Shown here in pieces: positions 5,831 through 22,487 of a DNA stretch of 23,411 nt; position 1 is the first letter of the stretch; every line of letters starts with the position of its first letter. A program made the translations under genes and the position numbers. Under the pieces are notes generated by a model. The model did no database searches. It was not told where the DNA came from and saw nothing but the letters and a program-made list of their open reading frames with translations. Origin of the DNA: a virus. The stretch lies in the IMG/VR virus record IMGVR_UViG_3300042379_000314, positions 1 to 23,411 of that record; one strand, written 5' to 3'.

Positions 5831-5847
5831 ATAAAAGGGTATATTTG
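5816..5847 (+). promoter_or_regulatory. Bacteroidota-type promoter for the phosphoesterase gene
   Basis: TATATTTG at 5840-5847 fits the TAnnTTTG -7 box, and TTG at 5816-5818 lies 21 bases upstream. The box sits between the lysozyme stop and the ATG at 5869. It overlaps the more upstream in-frame TTG codon at 5845, which argues that translation starts at the ATG. Confidence 0.7.
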
Positions 5848-7139: not shown

Positions 7140-7633
7140 AATATTTACTACTTGCATTTCTTATTGTTTCCTGCGGAGCAAAAACAGTTAACAAAGAGGA
7201 AAAGAAAACTGACAGCATCGCTACAACTATTGCAGTAGTGAAAACCGATAGCACTTCTATTGATAAAAAGGTATTGGTTTATGATGTTGAAACGGATGAA
7301 ATTGTAATCGAAGCAGTTGACACAACCCAGCCAATCGAGATAACCAATAACGAGGGGAAAGTAACTAAATACAAAAACGCTCGTTTAAGCACGAAAAAAC
7401 GAAAAGACAATACAATAGTAGTAAGTGAAAAGATTGTGGCTAAAATCGTTGTTGATTCAGTTACAAACGAGATTGAAGTTAATAAAGTTGAAAGTACAAA
7501 GATAGTTTATAAGGAGCAGTTTAATTGGGGAACGTTTATTTTGCAAACTTGGTATTGGTGGTTCTTATTAATTATAATCATTTACTTAATTTATAGATAT
7601 AAAAAAGGATTGTTTAAATTTCCATTATTATAA
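7136..7633 (+). CDS. Predicted unimolecular spanin (u-spanin)
   Basis: The 165-residue product begins with a lipoprotein signal (MKYLLLAFLIVSC) whose Cys13 would be lipidated and sorted to the outer membrane. It ends with a strong hydrophobic segment (about 136-153, WYWWFLLIIII) followed by YRYKK, an inner-membrane anchor with cytoplasmic positive charges. The 110 residues between are rich in V, T, K and E and probably beta-stranded. Outer-membrane lipid at one end and inner-membrane helix at the other is the topology of T1 gp11-type u-spanins, which fuse the two membranes in the last lysis step. The gene is 1.3 kb past the lysozyme. No sequence similarity is claimed; the call rests on topology and position. 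Confidence 0.78.
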   Translation: MKYLLLAFLIVSCGAKTVNKEEKKTDSIATTIAVVKTDSTSIDKKVLVYDVETDEIVIEAVDTTQPIEITNNEGKVTKYKNARLSTKKRKDNTIVVSEKIVAKIVVDSVTNEIEVNKVESTKIVYKEQFNWGTFILQTWYWWFLLIIIIYLIYRYKKGLFKFPLL

Positions 7634-7642
7634 AAAAAATTG

Positions 7643-7650
7643 TATATTTG
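7643..7650 (+). promoter_or_regulatory. TAnnTTTG -7 box upstream of the HNH-AP2 gene
   Basis: TATATTTG lies nine bases after the spanin stop and 94 bases before the endonuclease start. I see no TTG at the expected upstream distance. It would give the inserted endonuclease its own transcript beginning with the structured leader. Confidence 0.5.
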
Positions 7651-7661
7651 TTAATCTAAAA

Positions 7662-7735
7662 GTGCAATTTTAGAAATTAAAAAATTTAACTTAATTCAAT
7701 CCTTAGTAGTGTTGCACCACGAAACGGATTGAATT
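7662..7735 (+). promoter_or_regulatory. 5' leader with interleaved helices (pseudoknot type), ahead of HNH-AP2 gene
   Basis: Helix A pairs GTGCAA (7662-7667) with TTGCAC (7712-7717), 6 bp. Helix B pairs AATTCAATCC (7693-7702) with GGATTGAATT (7726-7735), 10 bp. The order A-B-A'-B' makes a pseudoknot possible. Helix B is followed by a T run (to 7739), so by itself it also resembles an A+T-rich intrinsic terminator, nine bases before the ATG at 7745. The architecture matches the leaders at 10660, 11208 and 12046. Confidence 0.55.
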
Positions 7736-7744
7736 TTTTGTATT

Positions 7745-8233
7745 ATGGAAGTTTGGAAAAAAATTAATGATTTTCCTGATTATTTTATTAGTAATTTAGG
7801 AAACGTAAAAAGTTTAAAAAAAGGTAAAGAAAAAATTTTAAAAGGAGGCACGAATAAAGATGGATATATTTATTTTATTTTAAGCTATAAAAATATTCAA
7901 ACAACAAAAACAGCGCATCAACTTGTTGCTCAATCATTTTTAAATCATAATCCTTGTGGAAATAAAATAGTTGTAAATCATATTAATTTTATTAGAACGG
8001 ATAATAGACTTGAAAATTTAGAAATAGTTACTAATAGAGAAAATACCAATAAAAAGCATATTAAAAGTCGTAGTAAATATATTGGAGTTGGATGGAATGT
8101 CAATTCTAAAAAATGGATTTCAAGAATTTATATAAATGGAAAAAGAAAGCATTTAGGATGTTTTGTTTCTGAAAAAGAAGCTAGTGATGCTTATCAAAAA
8201 GAATTATCAATGCTCAAATTTCCTTTGCTTTGA
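7745..8233 (+). CDS. NUMOD4-HNH-AP2 homing endonuclease
   Basis: The 162-residue product has three domains typical of phage mobile endonucleases. NUMOD4 lies at about 2-45 (WKKINDFPDYFISNLGNVKS). The HNH domain is at about 55-103, with VVNHINFIRTDNRLENLEIVT holding the NH pair (Asn78-His79) and the conserved Asn residues. An AP2-like DNA-binding domain is at about 111-155 (YIGVGWN...KKWISRIYING...HLGCF.SEKEA). It nicks or cuts DNA at a recognition site and spreads by homing. The last five residues, KFPLL, are the same as the last five of the upstream spanin, with different codons. The gene is strongly A+T-rich and has its own promoter and structured leader, all consistent with an inserted mobile gene. 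Confidence 0.9.
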   Translation: MEVWKKINDFPDYFISNLGNVKSLKKGKEKILKGGTNKDGYIYFILSYKNIQTTKTAHQLVAQSFLNHNPCGNKIVVNHINFIRTDNRLENLEIVTNRENTNKKHIKSRSKYIGVGWNVNSKKWISRIYINGKRKHLGCFVSEKEASDAYQKELSMLKFPLL

Positions 8234-8352
8234 AAACTCAATACGAATGGATAAAAAAGGGGAGTGATTGGGTGCGAGTTGAGAAAGTAGTCAACAAATG
8301 GAATAGTACACCACCGATTGAAGATGAAATAAAAAAGCCACTAGATGAATAG
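8230..8352 (+). CDS. Small 40-residue protein with TTG start, last gene of the late unit
   Basis: The frame starts at TTG 8230, overlapping the endonuclease stop as TTGA, and ends at TAG 8350. The product (core KTQYEWIKKGSDWVRVEKVV) has a protein-like composition with three Trp and an acidic tail. No ATG is available in frame. Other junctions here use ATGA overlaps, so the TTGA may be a relic of an ATGA junction with the spanin gene before the endonuclease inserted. The stop codon lies within the terminator hairpin. Function unknown. Confidence 0.55.
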   Translation: MKTQYEWIKKGSDWVRVEKVVNKWNSTPPIEDEIKKPLDE

Positions 8353-8360
8353 TGGCTTTT
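8333..8360. terminator. Bidirectional intrinsic terminator between converging units
   Basis: AAAAGCCACTA (8333-8343), loop GATGAA, TAGTGGCTTTT (8350-8360): an 11-bp perfect stem with T runs on both strands. It ends the plus-strand late unit and the minus-strand unit that runs toward it from 9611. The stem core GCCACT/AGTGGC is the same as in the terminator at 11971. Confidence 0.88.
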
Positions 8361-8404
8361 CTAATCTATCAAACATCAAACATTATGAAAGGCAAATGTA
8401 TGAA

Positions 8405-8473
8405 TTAGTTTTTAATTATCATCCTTTTTTGTTGTTTTGGTTGTATAGGGGAAAGTTTATCAGTTGTAGCCAT
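8405..8473 (-). CDS. Possible 22-residue peptide at the end of the minus unit
   Basis: An ATG at 8473 lies three bases after the stop of the preceding minus gene and opens a 22-codon frame starting MATTDKLSPI and ending in basic residues. Position and spacing suit a last operon gene, but the length is too small for codon evidence. It could be untranslated trailer. Confidence 0.3.
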   Translation of the reverse strand: MATTDKLSPIQPKQQKRMIIKN

Positions 8474-8476
8474 TAG

Positions 8477-8659
8477 TTAGTAACAATATTGCTTAATGTA
8501 GTCTTCCAAGCAAAGTAAAGGTAGTTTTTCACGGTCGCACCTTACACAAAATTCAGCGTATTCAATCGCAATACTATTACTAACACTATGTAAGCGTAAT
8601 TGCTCACTTTGTTCTTTAATGATACTTTTCAGTTGTTCAATTTCTTCATCCTTATCCAT
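8477..8659 (-). CDS. Small coiled-coil protein with C-terminal cysteines
   Basis: The product has 60 residues: an N-terminal charged heptad region (about 3-25) and a C-terminal part with four Cys (CVRC near 38-41, Cys50 and Cys59). The Cys residues could bind a metal, though the spacing matches no finger I know. It follows the HNH gene after 44 bases and has an A-rich stretch before its ATG. Function unknown. Confidence 0.65.
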   Translation of the reverse strand: MDKDEEIEQLKSIIKEQSEQLRLHSVSNSIAIEYAEFCVRCDREKLPLLCLEDYIKQYCY

Positions 8660-8703
8660 AATATTTGTTTTAATTTATACACAACTACGCTTACACCTAT
8701 CCG

Positions 8704-9129
8704 TTATCGGCAACTGCTACCTACACGTTCAAAATGAAATTTCCCATCCCATAAAGTGTGCTTAATTGAACCCATATTCATAGCCACTTGCATTTTAGTT
8801 TTGCTTTTGAATAAGTATTCTAATTTTTCATTCAGCATTTTGTGGAGTTGTTTCCGATACCCTTCTAAGTCTGTATGACATTTATAATTGTTGCAATCTT
8901 TACAGCTCGGATTAAGGTTTTCCAAATCATTTGTTCCACCAAAAATCTGTGGTTTAATATGGTCAACATTCCAACCCTTAACCAAATCAACTCCACAATA
9001 AGCACACTTGCCACCGCACTTATCATAGACTATCGCTCGAATTTTAGCTTTCGATAACTTAACCGCAGCAGCCGATAACACGGGTTTTGCGTCATTGGGG
9101 CTGTGGTATTTCAAATCAAGTTCTATCAT
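8704..9129 (-). CDS. HNH endonuclease with zinc-binding cysteines
   Basis: The 141-residue product carries the beta-beta-alpha-metal HNH motif: Cys42-x2-Cys45, then WNVDHIKPQIFGGTNDLENL (Asp56-His57 catalytic pair, Asn67 and Asn71), and Cys76-x2-Cys79 followed by Asn. The two CxxC pairs should hold a structural zinc, as in the McrA/5-methylcytosine-type HNH family. It lies in an early-looking minus unit of small proteins rather than beside the terminase, so a packaging-associated HNH role is less likely. Host DNA degradation, homing or competition with other phages are possible. It lacks the NUMOD and AP2 domains of the HNH gene at 7745, so the two are not recent copies. Confidence 0.88.
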   Translation of the reverse strand: MIELDLKYHSPNDAKPVLSAAAVKLSKAKIRAIVYDKCGGKCAYCGVDLVKGWNVDHIKPQIFGGTNDLENLNPSCKDCNNYKCHTDLEGYRKQLHKMLNEKLEYLFKSKTKMQVAMNMGSIKHTLWDGKFHFERVGSSCR

Positions 9130-9153
9130 AAGTTCAAATTTTGTTTTTCAAAT

Positions 9154-9215
9154 GAGCTTTAGTGCTGGTAATCCCCAACGAACGCAAAGCCCGAAAACGT
9201 TATAAGCCATTACCA
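9154..9215 (-). promoter_or_regulatory. Possible interleaved-helix leader ahead of the minus-strand HNH gene
   Basis: Read on the minus strand, TGGTAAT (9215-9209) can pair with ATTACCA (9172-9166), and GGGCTTT (9192-9186) with AAAGCTC (9160-9154) using one G-U pair. The arms interleave as in the four plus-strand leaders. The helices are only 7 bp each, the first arm overlaps the upstream stop codon, and no promoter is visible here, so this is the weakest candidate of the set. Confidence 0.25.
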
Positions 9216-9293
9216 ACAAACTAAAACGCCATAAGTTATTGCTACTAATAGAATGACTATTAAAAGCACTAATCCCTCGTTATTTTCTTTCAT
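9210..9293 (-). CDS. 27-residue membrane peptide
   Basis: The frame from ATG 9293 to TAA 9210 encodes a charged start (MKENNEG) and one hydrophobic segment (LVLLIVILLVAITYGVLV). Its start lies inside the end of the preceding gene (overlap 14 bases), typical of the coupled genes here. It may modulate a membrane process, but no function can be assigned. Confidence 0.55.
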   Translation of the reverse strand: MKENNEGLVLLIVILLVAITYGVLVCW

Positions 9294-9429
9294 TGTATTT
9301 TGTAGTCAAATATTCGTAAGCCAATCGGTTACATTCCTTAGTACCTCCGATAACTTCGATCTTATACTTTTCTAATTTACCGTTATACGGTTCTCTTTTC
9401 TCTATTCCTTTTTTTGGTCTGCCTGCCAT
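9280..9429 (-). CDS. Small basic 49-residue protein with AT-hook-like start
   Basis: The product begins MAGRPKKG, containing the GRP core with flanking basic residues seen in AT-hook peptides that bind the minor groove of A+T-rich DNA. The rest (KREPYNGKLEKYKIEVIGG and a helical end) is unrecognised. Overlaps with both neighbours support a real operon gene. DNA binding is an inference from the first eight residues only. Confidence 0.6.
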   Translation of the reverse strand: MAGRPKKGIEKREPYNGKLEKYKIEVIGGTKECNRLAYEYLTTKYNERK

Positions 9430-9611
9430 ACTGTATTGTTTAGTTGTTTATATTCCTTTGGTATTTTATCGATAATCCGCACACGCCAGCAACCGATTGC
9501 ATCTTCCTCAACTACTCTAAATTCACTCGGTAAAGTTACAATAGAATTATTATACTGCCGAACTATTATAAACTTCGGATTTTGGATTGTTTTAATGTGT
9601 GATATTTTCAT
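9402..9611 (-). CDS. Hypothetical 69-residue protein, first gene of the minus unit
   Basis: The frame runs from ATG 9611 with no other Met, so this start is the only ATG choice. The product looks beta-rich (KFIIVRQYNNSIVTLPSEFRVV, then CWRVRIIDKIP). The -7 box at 9623-9616 lies only four bases before the ATG, so the message would be leaderless or nearly so. It overlaps the next gene by 28 bases. Function unknown; first position in an early unit hints at an early host-directed role. Confidence 0.65.
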   Translation of the reverse strand: MKISHIKTIQNPKFIIVRQYNNSIVTLPSEFRVVEEDAIGCWRVRIIDKIPKEYKQLNNTVWQADQKKE

Positions 9612-9615
9612 TTCG

Positions 9616-9623
9616 CAAATCTA
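9616..9623 (-). promoter_or_regulatory. TAnnTTTG -7 box for the minus unit (divergent)
   Basis: On the minus strand the sequence is TAGATTTG. It is immediately upstream of the first minus gene and lies back to back with the plus promoter at 9671. The 47 bases between them are nearly pure A+T. No clear TTG is seen at the -33 distance. Confidence 0.5.
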
Positions 9624-9670
9624 CAAATAAACTTTTATATAAAAAAATTTTTTTATTACAATTTAGATTC

Positions 9671-9678
9671 TATATTTG
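9671..9678 (+). promoter_or_regulatory. TAnnTTTG -7 box for the plus replication unit
   Basis: TATATTTG is followed by a short unstructured A-rich leader and ATG 9706. It starts the run of coupled small genes up to 10629. A TTG at the -33 position is not evident. Confidence 0.6.
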
Positions 9679-9705
9679 CCTCATCAAACTTTAAAAAATA
9701 ACATT

Positions 9706-9795
9706 ATGAACAGATTTCAAAAAAACGATTGGCAGTATTTAATTGCGTTTGGTGCAGCAGTATGGTTTCTAACTCAAATAATATTTAGATACTAA
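9706..9795 (+). CDS. 29-residue membrane peptide
   Basis: The frame opens at the ATG 28 bases after the promoter box, with the local A-rich start context ACATTATG. The product (MNRFQKNDWQ, then a hydrophobic YLIAFGAAVWFLTQIIF) has one membrane segment. Its stop overlaps the next ATG (TAATG). First place in the unit and the coupling argue that it is translated. Function unknown. Confidence 0.6.
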   Translation: MNRFQKNDWQYLIAFGAAVWFLTQIIFRY

Positions 9796-10046
9796 TGAGC
9801 AATTACGATCACAATGTGTTAGGAGTTGGTAACTCACTACACCCAGCGAACCAAGAGGAAACTGAATTGGAGTTGACTATTGAGGAGCAAATGGAAAATG
9901 AGATTTGCGATTTAGAACGCAAAATCAGAGATTTAACAAACCGCATCAAATACCGAGAAGCGGTTAACAAGAAAATAGTTGAACTTTGCCAAGCGGTGTG
10001 TGGCGACAATACTTATATTTTTAACAAACTAAAAGAGATAAAATAA
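9795..10046 (+). CDS. Acidic 83-residue coiled-coil protein
   Basis: The product has an acidic N-terminal half (residues about 20-35 rich in Glu) and a helical region about 28-65 with heptad-like spacing. It shares TAATG with the previous gene and is two bases from the next, also a coiled-coil protein, so the two may act together. No known domain is recognised. Confidence 0.7.
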   Translation: MSNYDHNVLGVGNSLHPANQEETELELTIEEQMENEICDLERKIRDLTNRIKYREAVNKKIVELCQAVCGDNTYIFNKLKEIK

Positions 10047-10047
10047 A

Positions 10048-10275
10048 ATGGAAGATTTAATCAGATTTCAAGCGGAACAACTAAACGCATTAAGACAAGA
10101 AAACGAGCGTTTAAACAACGAACTCAAACAAGCTAGGGAATTAATGCAAGCACTTATTAACGATTGGGAGGTGCAAGATGCAGAAGTTTTAAACACTCCA
10201 CAACTGGACCAAGCGACTAAAGTGTTTGACGAGATATTTCAAAACCCTATTGAGCAACTTAACAACTTATTCTAA
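10048..10275 (+). CDS. 75-residue leucine-rich coiled-coil protein
   Basis: Residues 4-42 form a clear heptad pattern (IRFQAEQLNALRQENERLNN and onward), a leucine-zipper-like coiled coil. The C-terminal part is acidic and hydrophobic (VFDEIFQNPIEQLNNLF). The stop overlaps the next ATG as TAATG. A multimerising regulator or scaffold is possible, but nothing identifies it further. Confidence 0.7.
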   Translation: MEDLIRFQAEQLNALRQENERLNNELKQARELMQALINDWEVQDAEVLNTPQLDQATKVFDEIFQNPIEQLNNLF

Positions 10276-10430
10276 TGGACTACATAGCAGAAAACATCGT
10301 AGTACTTAGCTTTGTAGCTGTGTACTTACTTCTTTTGATTGTGTTTATCGTTTGTATTTTATTATTCCCCGATGAAATGATACAAGATATTGATTGGGAG
10401 GATAGATTTAAAGATAAAGACAATGGATAG
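10275..10430 (+). CDS. 51-residue single-pass membrane protein
   Basis: The frame starts at the TAATG junction at 10275. Residues about 8-31 are strongly hydrophobic (IVVLSFVAVYLLLLIVFIVC), followed by an acidic cytoplasmic-type tail (PDEMIQDIDWEDRF). It overlaps the next gene by eight bases. Function unknown; it is one of several tiny membrane proteins in the window. Confidence 0.6.
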   Translation: MDYIAENIVVLSFVAVYLLLLIVFIVCILLFPDEMIQDIDWEDRFKDKDNG

Positions 10431-10629
10431 GAGAAAAGATTACAGCAGATTCAAAATAACCATCATCGAGTTATGGTTTAGATTCGAATACTTTGGTAGG
10501 CAAACATTTATTAATCGAATGGCGATTAGTTCTAAAAAGATTAATAGAATTTTAGACGAATGGGAAGATAACGACGAGTGCATTTTAGTTGAAAGTAAGT
10601 TAAATTATACCGCAAAAACTTATTTATAG
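10423..10629 (+). CDS. Small basic 68-residue protein, possible helix-turn-helix
   Basis: I choose ATG 10423 over the upstream TTG 10390 because it gives the usual short overlap with the preceding gene. The segment FINRMAISSKKINRILDEWE (about 29-48) has the length and hydrophobic pattern of a helix-turn-helix, and the N-terminus is basic. It closes this first set of plus genes; a new promoter follows 13 bases later. A regulatory role is a guess. Confidence 0.6.
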   Translation: MDRRKDYSRFKITIIELWFRFEYFGRQTFINRMAISSKKINRILDEWEDNDECILVESKLNYTAKTYL

Positions 10630-10641
10630 AAAAAAAGTTTT

Positions 10642-10649
10642 TATATTTG
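10642..10649 (+). promoter_or_regulatory. TAnnTTTG -7 box ahead of the 10736 gene
   Basis: TATATTTG lies 13 bases after the previous stop and directly before the structured leader. No clear TTG occurs at the -33 distance. Confidence 0.6.
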
Positions 10650-10659
10650 CAAAAGAAAT

Positions 10660-10719
10660 CCGCCAAGATTGAATTTATAACTAACTCACTCTTTGCACTT
10701 GGCGGTCATTGAGTGGGTT
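10660..10719 (+). promoter_or_regulatory. 5' leader with interleaved 8-bp and 9-bp helices (pseudoknot type)
   Basis: Helix A pairs CCGCCAAG (10660-10667) with CTTGGCGG (10698-10705). Helix B pairs AACTCACTC (10683-10691), lying in the loop of A, with GAGTGGGTT (10711-10719), lying beyond A, with one G-U pair. The order A-B-A'-B' is a pseudoknot. Helix B ends in a T run (10717-10722) and the start codon is 17 bases later. A also contains the only GC-rich stretch in this neighbourhood. An alternative pair TGCAAA (10648-10653) with TTTGCA (10692-10697) competes. Confidence 0.65.
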
Positions 10720-10735
10720 TTTTAATTTAAACATT

Positions 10736-11179
10736 ATGAGTAAAGATTTATTTCAATTAATGAGGGAGCAAGAAATTCAAACAAGCAATTTCCTGCCAAA
10801 CAAAAAAGAGATCCAGCTATCTGCAAAAACATTCATTAAAGAAGTGTTAGATGCTGGAGAAATAGACAAAATTGAACTATTAGCACAAGCCAAAAGAATG
10901 GGCGAAGCGTTGGATGTTATTAACGCTGAACTTATTAAAGTTCTCCCACAAGAGAACTTCGAGGGTTACGGACTTAAAGGTACATTTAGAAGCGGTGGCG
11001 AAACAATCAACTACAAAGATTGCGAAGTTTGGAGCGACATTAACCGAGAACTTAAAGAACGTGAGGAACTTCTTAAAATAGCTTTGAAATCGCATAATGA
11101 AATATACGATGCGGCTGGAGTACAGGTGCCAAAAGTATCAACAACGCCACGCAAAAGTAGTTTGGCAATATCATTTTAA
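10736..11179 (+). CDS. Hypothetical 147-residue protein upstream of the SSB-like gene
   Basis: ATG 10736 is chosen over the upstream in-frame TTG at 10709, which lies inside the leader structure. The product is mostly helical (about 25-60, LSAKTFIKEVLDAGEIDKIE, and about 95-125, REEREEL-type), with a Gly-rich turn RSGGETINYKDC (about 84-95) and a basic C-terminus. Pairing with an SSB-like gene resembles loci of recombination or nuclease-inhibitor (Gam or Gp157-like) proteins, but I cannot confirm the family. It is set off as its own unit by a promoter and a structured leader. Confidence 0.8.
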   Translation: MSKDLFQLMREQEIQTSNFLPNKKEIQLSAKTFIKEVLDAGEIDKIELLAQAKRMGEALDVINAELIKVLPQENFEGYGLKGTFRSGGETINYKDCEVWSDINRELKEREELLKIALKSHNEIYDAAGVQVPKVSTTPRKSSLAISF

Positions 11180-11192
11180 ATTACTATATTTA
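11162..11192 (+). promoter_or_regulatory. Promoter for the SSB-like gene
   Basis: TTG (11162-11164), 20-base spacer, TATATTTA (11185-11192): one mismatch from TAnnTTTG. The -33 box lies within the end of the preceding gene. It feeds directly into the compact pseudoknot leader. Confidence 0.5.
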
Positions 11193-11207
11193 CATTTCAT
11201 AATTAAC

Positions 11208-11240
11208 AGCTCGAAGGTTTCACGAGCTTCTATTGAAACC
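11208..11240 (+). promoter_or_regulatory. Compact H-type RNA pseudoknot ahead of the SSB-like gene
   Basis: Stem 1 pairs AGCTCG (11208-11213) with CGAGCT (11223-11228). Stem 2 pairs GGTTTCA (11216-11222) with TGAAACC (11234-11240). Loop 1 is AA, no base separates stem 2's first arm from stem 1's second arm, and loop 3 is TCTAT. All 13 pairs are Watson-Crick, and the loop sizes allow coaxial stacking as in classical H-type pseudoknots. An 18-base A-rich unpaired linker then leads to ATG 11259. The layout is that of the T4 gene 32 translational operator. Confidence 0.7.
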
Positions 11241-11258
11241 ATAAAAAAATATAAAATT

Positions 11259-11948
11259 ATGACAACAACTTCAAACCGCAGACAAGCGTTTGCACAACCA
11301 CAAAGCAATCCAGCCACTAAATTTATCGAGTGGAAATCAAATGACAAGTGTTTCAACTATTATGACAAGGATGCACAGAAAAATGTAGAAATACCTTTGC
11401 CTTTTAAGTTCTTAGTACTAGACGAACTACATTGCATTAAAGGTTGGAATGATGCAAGTTCAAGCAATATTTACTCCAACGAAGTGAAATTCATTTCAAA
11501 AGAAGTAATGACAGTTAAACCTTTTAAAGGAAACGAGATTGCTAAAGGGTATTACAAGGATATTAAAGAGAAAGTTGTAGCTGCTGGAGGGCATTACACC
11601 AAGTCTATTTATGTAATGCTAGAAGATGGTTCACTAGCAAACATATCACTAAAAGGTTCTGGCGTTCAAAAGTGGGGAGATTTCACGCAGAAAACTAGAA
11701 ACAGACTTGCAGACGAGTGGGTAATAGTTGCATCAGCAGAAGATGGTAAAAAAGGAGCAGTTAAGTTCTCAACACCAAGTTTCTCTTTTGCAAACTCTAT
11801 TTCAGATGAAGAAGCTAATATGGCAGACGAAGCCTTCAACATATTGGAATCGTATCTTAAAACATACTTAGCAAAAGCAGAGCCAACTATTGTTGAAGAA
11901 GAAGAAGATGACTTAGAGCCGACAGTAGATGATGGATTAGACTTCTAA
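11259..11948 (+). CDS. Putative single-stranded DNA-binding protein with acidic tail
   Basis: ATG 11259 gives 229 residues; the frame is open further upstream, but only across the leader. The N-terminus is basic and polar (MTTTSNRRQAFAQ), the middle (about 25-180) is beta-rich with aromatic and basic residues (KCFNYYDKD, KGYYKDIKEK, KKGAVKF). The end is very acidic (about 212-229), finishing DDGLDF. An acidic tail ending in a hydrophobic residue is the partner-binding tail of SSB, T7 gp2.5 and T4 gp32. With a primase-helicase gene downstream, an SSB role is likely, but no OB-fold signature can be proven by eye. A terminator follows, so it is a single-gene unit. Confidence 0.6.
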   Translation: MTTTSNRRQAFAQPQSNPATKFIEWKSNDKCFNYYDKDAQKNVEIPLPFKFLVLDELHCIKGWNDASSSNIYSNEVKFISKEVMTVKPFKGNEIAKGYYKDIKEKVVAAGGHYTKSIYVMLEDGSLANISLKGSGVQKWGDFTQKTRNRLADEWVIVASAEDGKKGAVKFSTPSFSFANSISDEEANMADEAFNILESYLKTYLAKAEPTIVEEEEDDLEPTVDDGLDF

Positions 11949-11970
11949 ACGCCAAACAACACAACTAATT

Positions 11971-11997
11971 AAAGCCACTTATTTGAGTGGCTTTTTT
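11971..11997 (+). terminator. Intrinsic terminator after the SSB-like gene
   Basis: AAAGCCACT (11971-11979), loop TATTTG, AGTGGCTTT (11986-11994) followed by further Ts to 11997: a 9-bp stem. The core of the stem repeats that of the terminator at 8333. Confidence 0.88.
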
Positions 11998-12010
11998 ATT
12001 TAATAATTTT

Positions 12011-12040
12011 TTTGATATGTTGTATTTTTTTGTATATTTG
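12011..12040 (+). promoter_or_regulatory. Promoter for the primase-helicase unit
   Basis: TTTG (12011-12014), 18-base spacer, TATATTTG (12033-12040). It lies just after the terminator and just before the structured leader. Confidence 0.65.
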
Positions 12041-12045
12041 TTGTG

Positions 12046-12121
12046 CTGCAACAATTTAAGAAAACATTAATCTAAAAGGGATAATGAAACCAACGTTGCA
12101 GTAGGTGGATTTATCCCTTTT
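12046..12121 (+). promoter_or_regulatory. 5' leader with interleaved 7-bp and 11-bp helices (pseudoknot type)
   Basis: Helix A pairs CTGCAAC (12046-12052) with GTTGCAG (12095-12101). Helix B pairs AAAAGGGATAA (12074-12084) with TTATCCCTTTT (12111-12121), a perfect 11-bp match. A' lies within the loop of B and A lies outside it, so the helices interleave. A T run follows B (to 12124), and ATG 12139 is 17 bases after B. Since a promoter precedes it and a separate terminator already closes the previous gene, this is not just a terminator. Confidence 0.65.
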
Positions 12122-12138
12122 TTTAATTTATTTTATTT

Positions 12139-12393
12139 ATGAAACTATTTATTACCAACAAAGAGTATTTCGAGGAAATGTTTACTCTAGATGATTACAG
12201 AGATGGGTTTTATCTTACACCCAAACAAATCCACCAAAAAGCATTTAACGAATTAAAACTATCTTTAGATGTAGAACATTCTATTCCTATATGTTTAACT
12301 CCAGAATATAAAGATTTGGGAAACGCTATCTTTGATTTTGTAACCAAAAAGGGAGATGTTTATTATTACGAATTTACAACAACAGCTTCGTAA
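12139..12393 (+). CDS. Hypothetical 84-residue protein coupled to the primase gene
   Basis: The product (MKLFITNKEYFEEMF onward) is aromatic- and acid-rich without a recognised motif. Its TAATG junction with the primase-helicase gene, one base of overlap, suggests cotranslation and perhaps a partner role in replication. It follows the structured leader at 12046. Confidence 0.75.
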   Translation: MKLFITNKEYFEEMFTLDDYRDGFYLTPKQIHQKAFNELKLSLDVEHSIPICLTPEYKDLGNAIFDFVTKKGDVYYYEFTTTAS

Positions 12394-14681
12394 TGGAAAA
12401 AGATAAACTAAAGTTATTTTGGGAAAACTTTTCTCTAATAACAGTATCAGACAATAAGATACCTAACTTTCCTTGGAAATCTTGTCAAACAGAAAAACAA
12501 AGTTTTGAAAAGTTTATTAAAAACTACGACTACAAAGGCGGTATTATAAAAAAAGATGGAACAGAAATACCTCCAACAGATAACTTTGGTATTGTTACAG
12601 GCTTTGAATATTTAGAAGTAATTGATATAGACCTAAAAGTTTTATCGACAGCTAAAGAGCAAGTGGCTTTTTGGGATGAATACTTAAAATATTTAAAAGA
12701 TAACATACTAGATTTTGACGACAAGTTTGTAGTTTATAAAACTAAAAATGCTGGTTATCATATACTTTATAAATCTAAAAGAGTACAGGGTAATTTAAAA
12801 CTATCAAAGTTAAAAGGACATAGTGAAGCTATTATAGAAACTAGAGGTGTTGGAGGTTATGTATTTACTTATCCAGACAATAAAGTTTCTAAGAAAAATT
12901 ATCATCAAGTAGATTTTATTTCAGATGATGATAGAGAAATAATTATGAGTTTCTCTAAAATGTATAACTACATTGATGAAGAACCTATACAGCCGATTAA
13001 AGACAAAAAAACTTACAAAGAGGGCGATATTACTCCTTGGGATGATTACAACAGTAAAACGAGTATTTTTGATGTTATAGGAACGGAATTTTCTATTGTA
13101 GCAAATCAGAATAAAAGATATGTTATAAAAAGACAAGGAGGTACTTCTCCTCACTCTGGATATATTTTTAAAGATACGGGTTGTATGTACTTATTTTCAA
13201 CTGGTACAGAATATCCACACGAAAAACTTATAACTCCATTTACTGCTTATGCTTTCAAAAATCATAGAGGAAACTTATCTGAAGCATCTAAATCACTTTA
13301 TGAACTTGGTTTTGGAACTCGATTTGTTAAAAATGAATTAGATTCAGAAAAAAAAACAATATTAGAGAAAGAAGAAAGTTTATACATCAACAAAGATGAT
13401 TTACAATTTCCTTTAGATATATTCCCCGATTCAATACAGGCTTACATTTTGGAGTGTAATAAAACCTTAGATAGTTCTATCGATTATATGGGTTGTGCTG
13501 TTTTGTGGCTAATATCTTTAAGTATTGGTAATAGTATGCAGATTGAAGTAAAAAGAGGTTGGAACGAAATTGCAACCTTATGGCTTTCAATAGTAGGTAA
13601 AGCTGGTATAGGTAAAACGCCATCTATTTCAAATATTATATTTCCGCTAGAGAAAATTAATAATAGAGAAATAGCTAACTACATAAAAGAATATGAGAAG
13701 TTTGATTTTTACGACAAGCTATCTAAAAAAGAACAAGAAGAATATCCAGAAGTTACAAAGCCTAAGAAAAAACAATTTATTGCAAATGATATTACTTTAG
13801 AAGCATTGGTTGACTTGCATCAAGAAAGCGATAATGCTGTCGGTGTTTTTAAAGATGAATTAGCTGGTTGGTTTAAAGATATGAATAAATATAAGCAAGG
13901 ATCTGATTTAGAGTTTTGGCTTTCTTGTTGGAGTGGAAAGTCTGTTAATTTGAATAGAATAACAAGAGCTGGTTCTTTTGTTTCTAAGCCGCTTATATCT
14001 GTGCTGGGAGGTATTCAACCTACTATCTTTAATACTTTTTATACTGATGAAAATAAAGAAAACGGTTTTATGGATAGGATGTTATTATCTTATCCAGAAC
14101 TTACAGTTGAAAGTTACAATGATAGAGAAATGGATTATAATACTATTCAATGGTATAGCGATACAATAATTTCATTTTTTGAAACTGTAAAGAATAAAAT
14201 AATTAAGAGGGATGAAGAACAAAATATTCAACCTATTTTAATAAAGTTTGGAAAAGAAGCAAAGATAGAGTGGATTAGAATCTTTAATAACATTACAGAA
14301 ACTCAAAACTCTGATTTAGAAAACGAGTATATGAAGTCAATGCTTCCTAAGCAAAAATCTTACATTCCTAGATTTGCACTCTTAATACACGCTTTTAATG
14401 CGATAGGTCAAACAAATTATAATTTTGAAGAAGTATCAAAGGAATCAATTTTAAAGGCTGAAAAGCTATCTAAATACTTTATTGCGATGGCTAAAAAAGT
14501 AAAGTTAGATAGTGTAGAAGTATCAGACTTAAAACAATCCATTAAAACACAAAATGGCAAAACAACATTTGAAAAGCTAAAAGCTATCAATGAAAGTAAT
14601 CCAGAATTTAATAGATTGAAAACTGCTGAACTTTTAGGAATATCTAGGCAACAAATCTATAATTTGATTAAAAAACTGTAA
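12393..14681 (+). CDS. Primase (AEP/Prim-Pol type) fused to DUF3987 helicase
   Basis: The 762-residue product combines two replication enzymes. Residues about 20-185 form an archaeo-eukaryotic-type primase domain: DID (78-80) as the metal-binding DxD, GYH (121-123) as the sxH-type motif, and an IIETRGVGGYV segment (148-158). Residues about 340-700 match a DUF3987 helicase-like domain: Walker A GKAGIGKTP (402-410), an acidic Walker B-like VGVFKDELAGW (483-493) and ISVLGGIQP (535-543). The C-terminus (742-762) is a short helix-turn-helix, TAELLGISRQQIYNLIKKL, that may bind DNA. It would unwind the origin and make primers. The gene ends at the edge of the repeat-rich region at 14675, the presumed origin, which its HTH might recognise. 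Confidence 0.88.
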   Translation: MEKDKLKLFWENFSLITVSDNKIPNFPWKSCQTEKQSFEKFIKNYDYKGGIIKKDGTEIPPTDNFGIVTGFEYLEVIDIDLKVLSTAKEQVAFWDEYLKYLKDNILDFDDKFVVYKTKNAGYHILYKSKRVQGNLKLSKLKGHSEAIIETRGVGGYVFTYPDNKVSKKNYHQVDFISDDDREIIMSFSKMYNYIDEEPIQPIKDKKTYKEGDITPWDDYNSKTSIFDVIGTEFSIVANQNKRYVIKRQGGTSPHSGYIFKDTGCMYLFSTGTEYPHEKLITPFTAYAFKNHRGNLSEASKSLYELGFGTRFVKNELDSEKKTILEKEESLYINKDDLQFPLDIFPDSIQAYILECNKTLDSSIDYMGCAVLWLISLSIGNSMQIEVKRGWNEIATLWLSIVGKAGIGKTPSISNIIFPLEKINNREIANYIKEYEKFDFYDKLSKKEQEEYPEVTKPKKKQFIANDITLEALVDLHQESDNAVGVFKDELAGWFKDMNKYKQGSDLEFWLSCWSGKSVNLNRITRAGSFVSKPLISVLGGIQPTIFNTFYTDENKENGFMDRMLLSYPELTVESYNDREMDYNTIQWYSDTIISFFETVKNKIIKRDEEQNIQPILIKFGKEAKIEWIRIFNNITETQNSDLENEYMKSMLPKQKSYIPRFALLIHAFNAIGQTNYNFEEVSKESILKAEKLSKYFIAMAKKVKLDSVEVSDLKQSIKTQNGKTTFEKLKAINESNPEFNRLKTAELLGISRQQIYNLIKKL

Positions 14682-14926
14682 AGTGTACACTAAAAAGTGT
14701 ACAGTTAGTTTACAGTAACTTTGTAGCATTGACAGTACTTAACAAGGAAAAGTGTAAACTGTTTACACTTTACACTAAAAATAAATTAAAAAAATATTTA
14801 TCAAAAAATATTTTATAAATAAAAAAAAGTGTACACTTTACAGTAAAAACGTTGTTAAGCCTTGTTATCATTGAAAAGTTACTGTAAACTACCACTGTAA
14901 ACTACTTTACACTTGTGTACACTTTT
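14675..14926. other. Putative replication origin: iterons around an A+T-only core
   Basis: The stretch between the primase-helicase and the next gene has no coding frame. It holds about ten copies of a 10-base family AGT(G/T)TA(C/A)A(C/G)T in both orientations: for example AGTGTACACT 14682, AGTGTACAGT 14696, AGTTTACAGT 14707, AGTGTAAACT 14751, AGTGTACACT 14828, and ACTGTAAACTA at 14881 and 14894. A near-perfect palindrome, AAAGTGTAAAC-T-GTTTACACTTT, spans 14749-14771. Between the two repeat clusters, 14777-14827 is almost pure A+T with several poly-A tracts. The left and right clusters are themselves rough inverted copies (TAGTTTACAGTAACTTT left; its complement right; ACAAGG left, CCTTGT right). 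Iterons plus an unwinding-prone core next to a primase-helicase is the usual form of an initiator-dependent origin. A repressor operator array is an alternative. Confidence 0.65.
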
Positions 14927-14941
14927 AAAAAGTAATAATTT

Positions 14942-22381: not shown

Positions 22382-22382
22382 T

Positions 22383-22487
22383 GCAACCGTTGAAGCGGAA
22401 GCCGTTAACGCTGCAACCGTGAGAGCGGAAGCCGTTAACGCTGCAACCGTTGGAGCGAGAGCCGTTAACGCTGCAACCGCTGAAGCG
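22383..22487 (+). repeat. 30-bp tandem repeat, 3.5 copies
   Basis: Three units start at 22383, 22413 and 22443 with a half unit at 22473. Each starts GCAACCG and ends GCCGTTAACGCT, and differs at a few central positions. It is G+C-rich in an A+T-rich genome. The +1 frame encodes a 10-residue unit ATVEAEAVNA. Confidence 0.9.

Follow-up and report, generated by a model that had tools for sequence, protein, structure and literature searches.

Structured RNA leaders of two kinds ahead of replication and homing-endonuclease genes in Flavobacterium-type phages

The virus record IMGVR_UViG_3300042379_000314 (23.4 kb; positions 1 to 23,411, here called the window and analysed over its full length) carries tailed-phage genes and promoters of the TAnnTTTG type used by Bacteroidota. 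Four of its genes are preceded by leaders with two interleaved helices, numbered here 1 to 4. Comparative evidence strongly supports these structures as real RNA features, of two kinds: a kissing-loop class (leaders 1, 2, and 4) and a compact pseudoknot (leader 3). Related viruses keep the folds while the letters change, which suggests undescribed phage switches that may turn single genes up or down. With a probability of about 0.5, they comprise two cis-acting devices, namely terminator attenuators with a kissing loop in leaders 1, 2, and 4 and an autogenous translational operator in leader 3. Close relatives of the window are metagenomic viruses, and local similarity extends to isolated phages, including Flavobacterium phages (hosts LMO6 and LMO9).

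Four leaders with two architectures

The leaders were picked out by a model that had read only the letters of the window (the first-pass annotation), and inspection of their arms, loops, and distances returned every one as given there. Leader 1 pairs GTGCAA with TTGCAC (6 bp) and AATTCAATCC with GGATTGAATT (10 bp); leader 2 pairs CCGCCAAG with CTTGGCGG (8 bp) and AACTCACTC with GAGTGGGTT (9 bp); leader 3 pairs AGCTCG with CGAGCT (6 bp) and GGTTTCA with TGAAACC (7 bp); and leader 4 pairs TGCTGCAAC with GTTGCAGTA (7 Watson-Crick pairs; 9 if G-U pairs are included) and AAAAGGGATAA with TTATCCCTTTT (11 bp). The annotated helix lengths (6+10, 8+9, 6+7, and 7+11 bp) are thus right. The structures end 9, 16, 18, and 17 bases before the ATG in leaders 1 to 4, and each follows the expected promoter box, which reads TATATTTG in leaders 1, 2, and 4 and TATATTTA in leader 3.

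The comparison with dinucleotide-shuffled leaders that had been proposed as a check yielded the same helix score in 8, 0, 1, and 0 of 2000 trials (leaders 1 to 4). A scan of the entire window for interleaved helices with T runs, made without a promoter anchor, was non-significant, with AT-rich shuffles scoring equally high. This high background is caused by the AT-richness of the DNA and renders single leaders unconvincing when taken alone; it is the comparative evidence that convinces. When the scan was anchored to TAnnTTTG (906 promoter-like sites, drawn from the window and from 33 related loci), 38 interleaved structures reached a score of at least 36, as opposed to 0–3 in shuffles of the same 906 segments. 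The promoters at positions 5840 and 9671 of the window are followed by plain leaders lacking such a fold, which argues that the fold is not a by-product of promoter regions.

The proposal that selection acts on the architecture rather than on the sequence is borne out by the covariation among relatives, and the T tract noted behind the second helix of three leaders is a class feature of leaders 1, 2, and 4. The idea of a single family of four, however, had to be abandoned. Leader 3 is a compact H-type pseudoknot that lacks a U tract and is tied to one gene, and leaders 1, 2, and 4 form a separate class, whose A arms usually lie in hairpin loops and whose kissing loop is nested in a terminator-like stem. 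As anticipated, no named RNA family fits: none of the 4227 Rfam 15 families matched the window or seven relatives at the gathering threshold, and a permissive Rfam search of positions 7600–12200 gave no match on the leaders.

The kissing-loop class

Members of this class share the same order of elements. The TAnnTTTG promoter is followed by arm A, which lies at or near the 5' end and usually in the loop of hairpin P1, and then by an A-rich linker; stem B encloses hairpin P2, the loop of P2 (A') pairs with A, and B' is succeeded by 8–9 U-rich bases and the start codon. In the window, the elements are placed as follows.

7643–7650, plus strand: leader 1 promoter box TATATTTG, read from the sequence; TAnnTTTG is the promoter consensus of Flavobacterium (PMC9723704)
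7655–7674, plus strand: leader 1 hairpin P1 in the nested fold, TCTAAAA and TTTTAGA around loop GTGCAA (7662–7667), which is arm A; covaries in homologue L033
7693–7735, plus strand: leader 1 terminator-like stem (B 7693–7702, B' 7726–7735), then a T run; enclosed are the AGTA junction (7705–7708), P2 GTG (7709–7711), loop A' (7712–7717), P2' CAC (7718–7720), and GAAA (7721–7724)
10642–10649, plus strand: leader 2 promoter box TATATTTG, read from the sequence
10660–10667, plus strand: leader 2 arm A CCGCCAAG, flanked by AAT and ATT, read from the sequence
10683–10719, plus strand: leader 2 stem region (B 10683–10691, A' 10698–10705, B' 10711–10719), then a T tract
12033–12040, plus strand: leader 4 promoter box TATATTTG, read from the sequence
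12044–12052, plus strand: leader 4 arm A TGCTGCAAC, from sequence and covariation
12074–12121, plus strand: leader 4 stem region (B 12074–12084 with UGAA junction; GGAT junction with B' 12111–12121), then a T tract; enclosed are P2 ACC (12089–12091), A' (12095–12103), and P2' GGT (12104–12106)

An ordinary nested fold, which is blind to the A:A' contact, resolves leader 1 into two hairpins whose loops, GTGCAA and TTGCAC, are perfect complements. The junction motif varies by subtype (AGUA/GAAA, UGAA/GGAU, or UGAU/UGAU).

An independent test was made on the HNH type. The genes behind its leaders include one for a recurrent protein of 79 amino acids (aa) without known function and, judging by the N-termini, genes for NUMOD4-HNH and GIY-YIG proteins. 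A pattern fixing only P2 and the junction (GATAAAGA-N7-CTTTTGA) retrieved 110 distinct contexts from IMG/VR; in 44 of them, arm A is the exact complement of N7 and the adjoining B stem is present, and 43 of these 44 have a TAnnTTTG promoter. Among 39 aligned sequences, 99.0% of the cells are paired and 12 of the 22 pairs have changed on both sides, with a covariation score of 0.386; shuffles give 0.098, and sliding the partner gives 0.043 at most. In the kissing helix, pairing is complete (100%) and three positions covary, one of them with three pair types. An unsupervised consensus fold recovers P1, B, and P2 together with two A-U pairs flanking B, and leaves two complementary 7-base stretches in the loops. 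Requiring the nested fold alone to predict fully complementary loops proved too strict (9 of 41 pass), with many GTCGTCG loops closing on themselves in the energy model.

In six leader 4 sequences, that of the window among them, the B stem is the same but both arms of the A/A' helix have changed together, one position showing four pair types; in other relatives of leader 4, B is altered too. Because the joint alignment of the two leader 4 subtypes (A6) contains a one-base shift in A', pairs were counted on its homogeneous subset (A7). In the leader 1 homologue L033, P1, A, B, and P2 all change in step while the AGTA/GAAA junction is kept. At the position of leader 2, the sequences found in relatives are quite different, but their architecture is the same. 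Model R1 did not find leaders 1 to 3 of the window and found leader 4 only at an E-value of 1.4, so that the link between the subtypes rests on shared architecture and not on sequence-based homology. Seven genomes (L022, L025, L162, G014, G025, G033, and G037) have two copies that are of the HNH type or much like it, and in every one of them the two kissing loops are unlike, as if cross-pairing were avoided; with p at about 0.03, estimated from loop frequencies, and some of the genomes related, this is only a hint.

Position and strand place the fold at the RNA level. The plus strand of the oriented loci holds 65 of the 72 distinct sites, and several of the minus cases are loci that were fetched by pattern and stored reversed. 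Arm A begins at a distance from the −7 box that is sharply bounded below at 3–4 bases and has modes at 4–5 and 9–12 bases. Since the promoter box of Flavobacterium psychrophilum occupies −12 to −5 (PMC9723704), +1 would be the fifth base after the box, which puts the arms just inside the transcript. The nine bases behind B' are 55–86% T and are followed by A-rich sequence, even though the structures had been picked regardless of T; they resemble the sequence behind an intrinsic terminator. Leaders 1, 2, and 4 all have stem and U tract between the promoter and the start codon.

In the collections searched, the class is essentially viral. The HNH-type leader is present in 34 records of isolated Flavobacterium phages; in phage mumin, an annotated NUMOD4 endonuclease stands behind it, and the helicase region has a second leader ahead of it. 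The 22-base HNH-type loop pattern, run against 257 Gb of bacterial and archaeal genomes, gave one true case, on a contig of a metagenome-assembled genome of Bacteroidetes; a second match was discarded for want of the leader structure, and a similarity search of plasmids with the HNH-type leader returned no match. Three loci (L107, L130, and L160) carry a stretch beginning TATAACG, and no immediate open reading frame, behind an HNH-type leader, possibly a rearranged or decayed cassette. In Polaribacter phage P12002L (L043, about 2860–2950), the leader of an HNH gene contains a hairpin with the loop AAGCGTTTA, after which come T10 and then two copies of TAAACGC; this loop could pair downstream instead of upstream.

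The window has the following genes behind leaders of this class.

7745–8233, plus strand: NUMOD4-HNH homing endonuclease of 162 aa behind leader 1 (Pfam NUMOD4 4.2e-12, HNH_3 7.8e-8)
10736–11179, plus strand: protein of 147 aa behind leader 2, no family found in family searches
12139–12393, plus strand: protein of 84 aa behind leader 4, with the primase/helicase gene next
12393–14681: primase/helicase gene after the 84-aa gene (DUF3987 2e-54, Prim-Pol 6.3e-6)

Behind the primase gene, the noncoding region 14675–14930 is dense in AGTGTACACTTT and TTTACAGT repeats and contains perfect inverted 17-mers; it is a candidate replication origin. Repeats of other words lie behind the 229-aa gene (described below) in related loci. 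A 30-bp tandem repeat of 3.5 copies (22382–22487) lies just behind the terminase small subunit gene.

The pseudoknot of leader 3 and its 229-aa protein

Leader 3 differs from the kissing-loop class in its fold and in its association with one gene.

11185–11192, plus strand: leader 3 promoter box TATATTTA, read from the sequence; TATATTTG in several homologues
11208–11240, plus strand: H-type pseudoknot (A 11208–11213, AA, B 11216–11222, A' 11223–11228, TCTAT, B' 11234–11240)
11241–11258, plus strand: A-rich tail, starting with AUAAA and running to the start codon
11259–11948, plus strand: gene of a candidate single-strand-binding protein of 229 aa with an acidic tail ending in DDGLDF (PHROG 6706, function unknown)

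The pseudoknot, with loops of 2, 0, and 5–6 bases, was found in 103 of 114 loci and in 34 distinct versions. In 19 aligned versions, 98.7% of the cells are paired and 10 of the 12 pairs have changed on both sides (covariation score 0.590 versus 0.172). The letters that stay constant are AA-GG between the helices and, behind these, CC-AUAAA.

A first AlphaFold model of the 229-aa protein, built from 23 close homologues, had a predicted local distance difference test score (pLDDT) of only 47, and its matches were meaningless; after the addition of a homologue from Mycobacterium phage Gaia and more relatives, the pLDDT rose to 84. Among the PDB chains compared with this model, the gp32 cores of RB69 and T4 rank second and third (Z 5.7 and 5.2; root-mean-square deviation 4.4 and 4.3 over 134 and 139 residues), ahead of other OB-fold single-strand binders, with Z values that are below 8 and by themselves not decisive. 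Foldseek returned 38 viral models at E ≤ 0.001, mostly of unnamed phage proteins. The distant homologue in Gaia is encoded between the genes of a DNA-binding protein and a polymerase/primase. A few results detract from a gp32-like operator: the top PDB row is a fusion of the phiC31 integrase with its recombination directionality factor (Z 7.0), which stands above gp32; Foldseek alone matched the better model to no PDB entry at E ≤ 0.001; and the UAAA repeats of the tail (1–3 per tail; mean 2.0 versus 1.2 in shuffles, the first UAAA having been demanded by the search pattern) exceed the expectation from composition only slightly. Sequence-family searches made for the gp32 comparison found no family, and a sequence profile against the PDB matched only a phosphorylase, so weakly (E 0.002–0.011) that the match was taken as chance.

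Proposed mechanisms, rival explanations, and known systems

An attenuator is the most economical reading of leaders 1, 2, and 4, in which we infer every step after the A:A' contact. During transcription, the 5' arm A, usually presented in P1, would pair with A', the loop of the weak P2 hairpin, before B' is made. This contact would hold P2 shut, nucleate the B/B' stem, and speed the closing of B. With B/B' formed directly before the U tract, many transcripts would stop there as RNAs of roughly 75–95 nt, and the downstream gene would be expressed by read-through. Expression would rise with anything that loosens or outruns the A:A' contact, for instance an RNA-binding protein of phage or host origin or the condition of the infected cell. 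Since copies in one genome differ in their helices and the junction motif, too, is exchanged, a ligand or an antisense RNA common to all of them is unlikely to be what recognises them, which leaves a fold-reading protein or simple kinetics. It is conceivable, albeit doubtful, that Flavobacterium-type phages use a shape-only RNA code in the form of a kissing-loop terminator, with helices rewritten between phages and mutually different within a genome, that is read by one fold-recognising phage or host factor and times replication and homing-endonuclease genes together. In the case of leader 3, binding of the 229-aa protein would begin at the pseudoknot and extend along the A-rich tail, so that the protein would cover the start of its own mRNA once the viral single-stranded DNA is saturated.

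Four observations on the kissing-loop leaders sit uneasily with attenuation. The U tract is interrupted in some members (L021, L030: TTTCTTATTTT); P1 and P2 are only weak in leader 2a; no antiterminator helix was seen, the consensus fold holding only P1, B, and P2, and no dedicated search for alternative helices was made; and B' ends about 11 bases before the AUG in the HNH type, which would suit a block of translation as well. The earlier suggestion of a switch between termination and read-through is therefore only partly sustained: the U tract fits, but a classical two-state switch is not borne out. The short distance to the AUG makes a translational block the main rival, in which the long leaders would stop or delay the ribosome until a factor unfolds them, with the U-rich stretch as an unstructured spacer. 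The spacing of B' (9–17 bases from the AUG, mostly 11, in the HNH type) and the independence of Flavobacteria from Shine-Dalgarno sequences (PMC9723704) lend it some plausibility; yet a mere spacer need not be U-rich, and the tract is specifically T-rich for about nine bases before turning A-rich, whereas the plain leaders of the window are A-rich, so that we consider such a block possible and rather unlikely.

If the folds were constitutive caps that shield the 5' ends of phage mRNA from decay, without any switch, arm A or P1 should begin near the transcript end, as it does (about +1 to +10), and sequence could vary freely under a kept fold, as a purely structural role allows; a cap, however, needs neither a U tract by the start codon nor a nested P2, and plain promoters of the same phage lack the fold, which makes this explanation improbable. 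Even less probable is that the terminated leaders act in trans as small RNAs, with the downstream genes being incidental: promoter, structured body, and U tract do look like a small-RNA gene, and three loci (L107, L130, and L160) have no reading frame directly behind the leader, but in most cases a start codon follows the leader directly at a constant spacing, and the loops vary freely without a conserved seed. Chance inverted repeats in AT-rich DNA or structures at the DNA level, for which the non-significant unanchored scans and the consideration of single-stranded DNA for the STAXI motif (PMC2864571) might speak, are already contradicted by the covariation, the strand bias, the fixed promoter offset, and the polarity of the U tract, and are hardly credible.

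Regulators such as structured phage leaders, attenuators, and pseudoknot operators are already known, and intrinsic-terminator attenuators with loop-loop contacts are represented by pT181-type antisense attenuation and purine riboswitches. Leaders 1, 2, and 4 resemble these in having loop-loop pairing beside a terminator-like stem and a U tract between promoter and gene, but their contact is in cis, without antisense RNA or a conserved ligand core, and their helix sequences are free. A ligand-binding riboswitch was rejected, as the members have no binding core in common, the junctions differ between subtypes, and the helices are free. The type III toxin-antitoxin RNAs (ToxI) consist of tandem pseudoknot repeats before a ToxN-like gene; the leaders share with them a pseudoknot and terminator ahead of a gene, but contain no repeats, and no toxin-like gene was recognised downstream (leader 1 precedes an HNH gene and leader 4 an operon with the primase/helicase). 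STAXI (RF01728) pseudoknots likewise occur near genes for single-strand-binding and other DNA-handling proteins, but are tandem, have UUCG loops, and belong to Enterobacteriales, whereas the leaders of the window are single and located at promoters; with one pseudoknot per leader, no tandem array, and no Rfam match, this family was dismissed too. Searches of the open-access literature turned up no account of regulatory RNAs of this sort in Bacteroidota phages, and, to our knowledge, a cis kissing-loop terminator with free helix sequence has not been described. The class combines strong covariation with a location ahead of replication genes and homing endonucleases, and its presence in isolated, named phages with known hosts makes it testable at the bench. 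If the attenuator reading is true, these leaders are natural terminators gated by a tertiary contact in cis whose sequence can change freely.

The closest counterpart of leader 3 is the gene 32 operator of T4 and RB69. In T4, a pseudoknot of about 28 nt comes first; downstream of it, RNA with less structure holds UUAAA/UAAA repeats and the ribosome site (PMC535899). Leader 3 shows the same succession of a 5' pseudoknot, an A-rich, UAAA-containing stretch, and a start codon, and it lies in a replication region ahead of the gene of a candidate single-strand-binding protein; as in T4, the pseudoknot is located 5' of the translation start, and both of its helices covary. By contrast, RNA and protein are unrelated in sequence, the tail is shorter (about 18 bases versus more than 40) and lacks a Shine-Dalgarno sequence, and the RNA begins directly downstream of a promoter of its own. 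Autoregulation by the 229-aa protein, including its binding to the RNA, is proposed by analogy. The resemblance suggests that the T4 gene 32 circuit, in which a single-strand-binding protein reads a pseudoknot in its own mRNA, is present in distant phages or evolved there a second time, a generality that can be tested.

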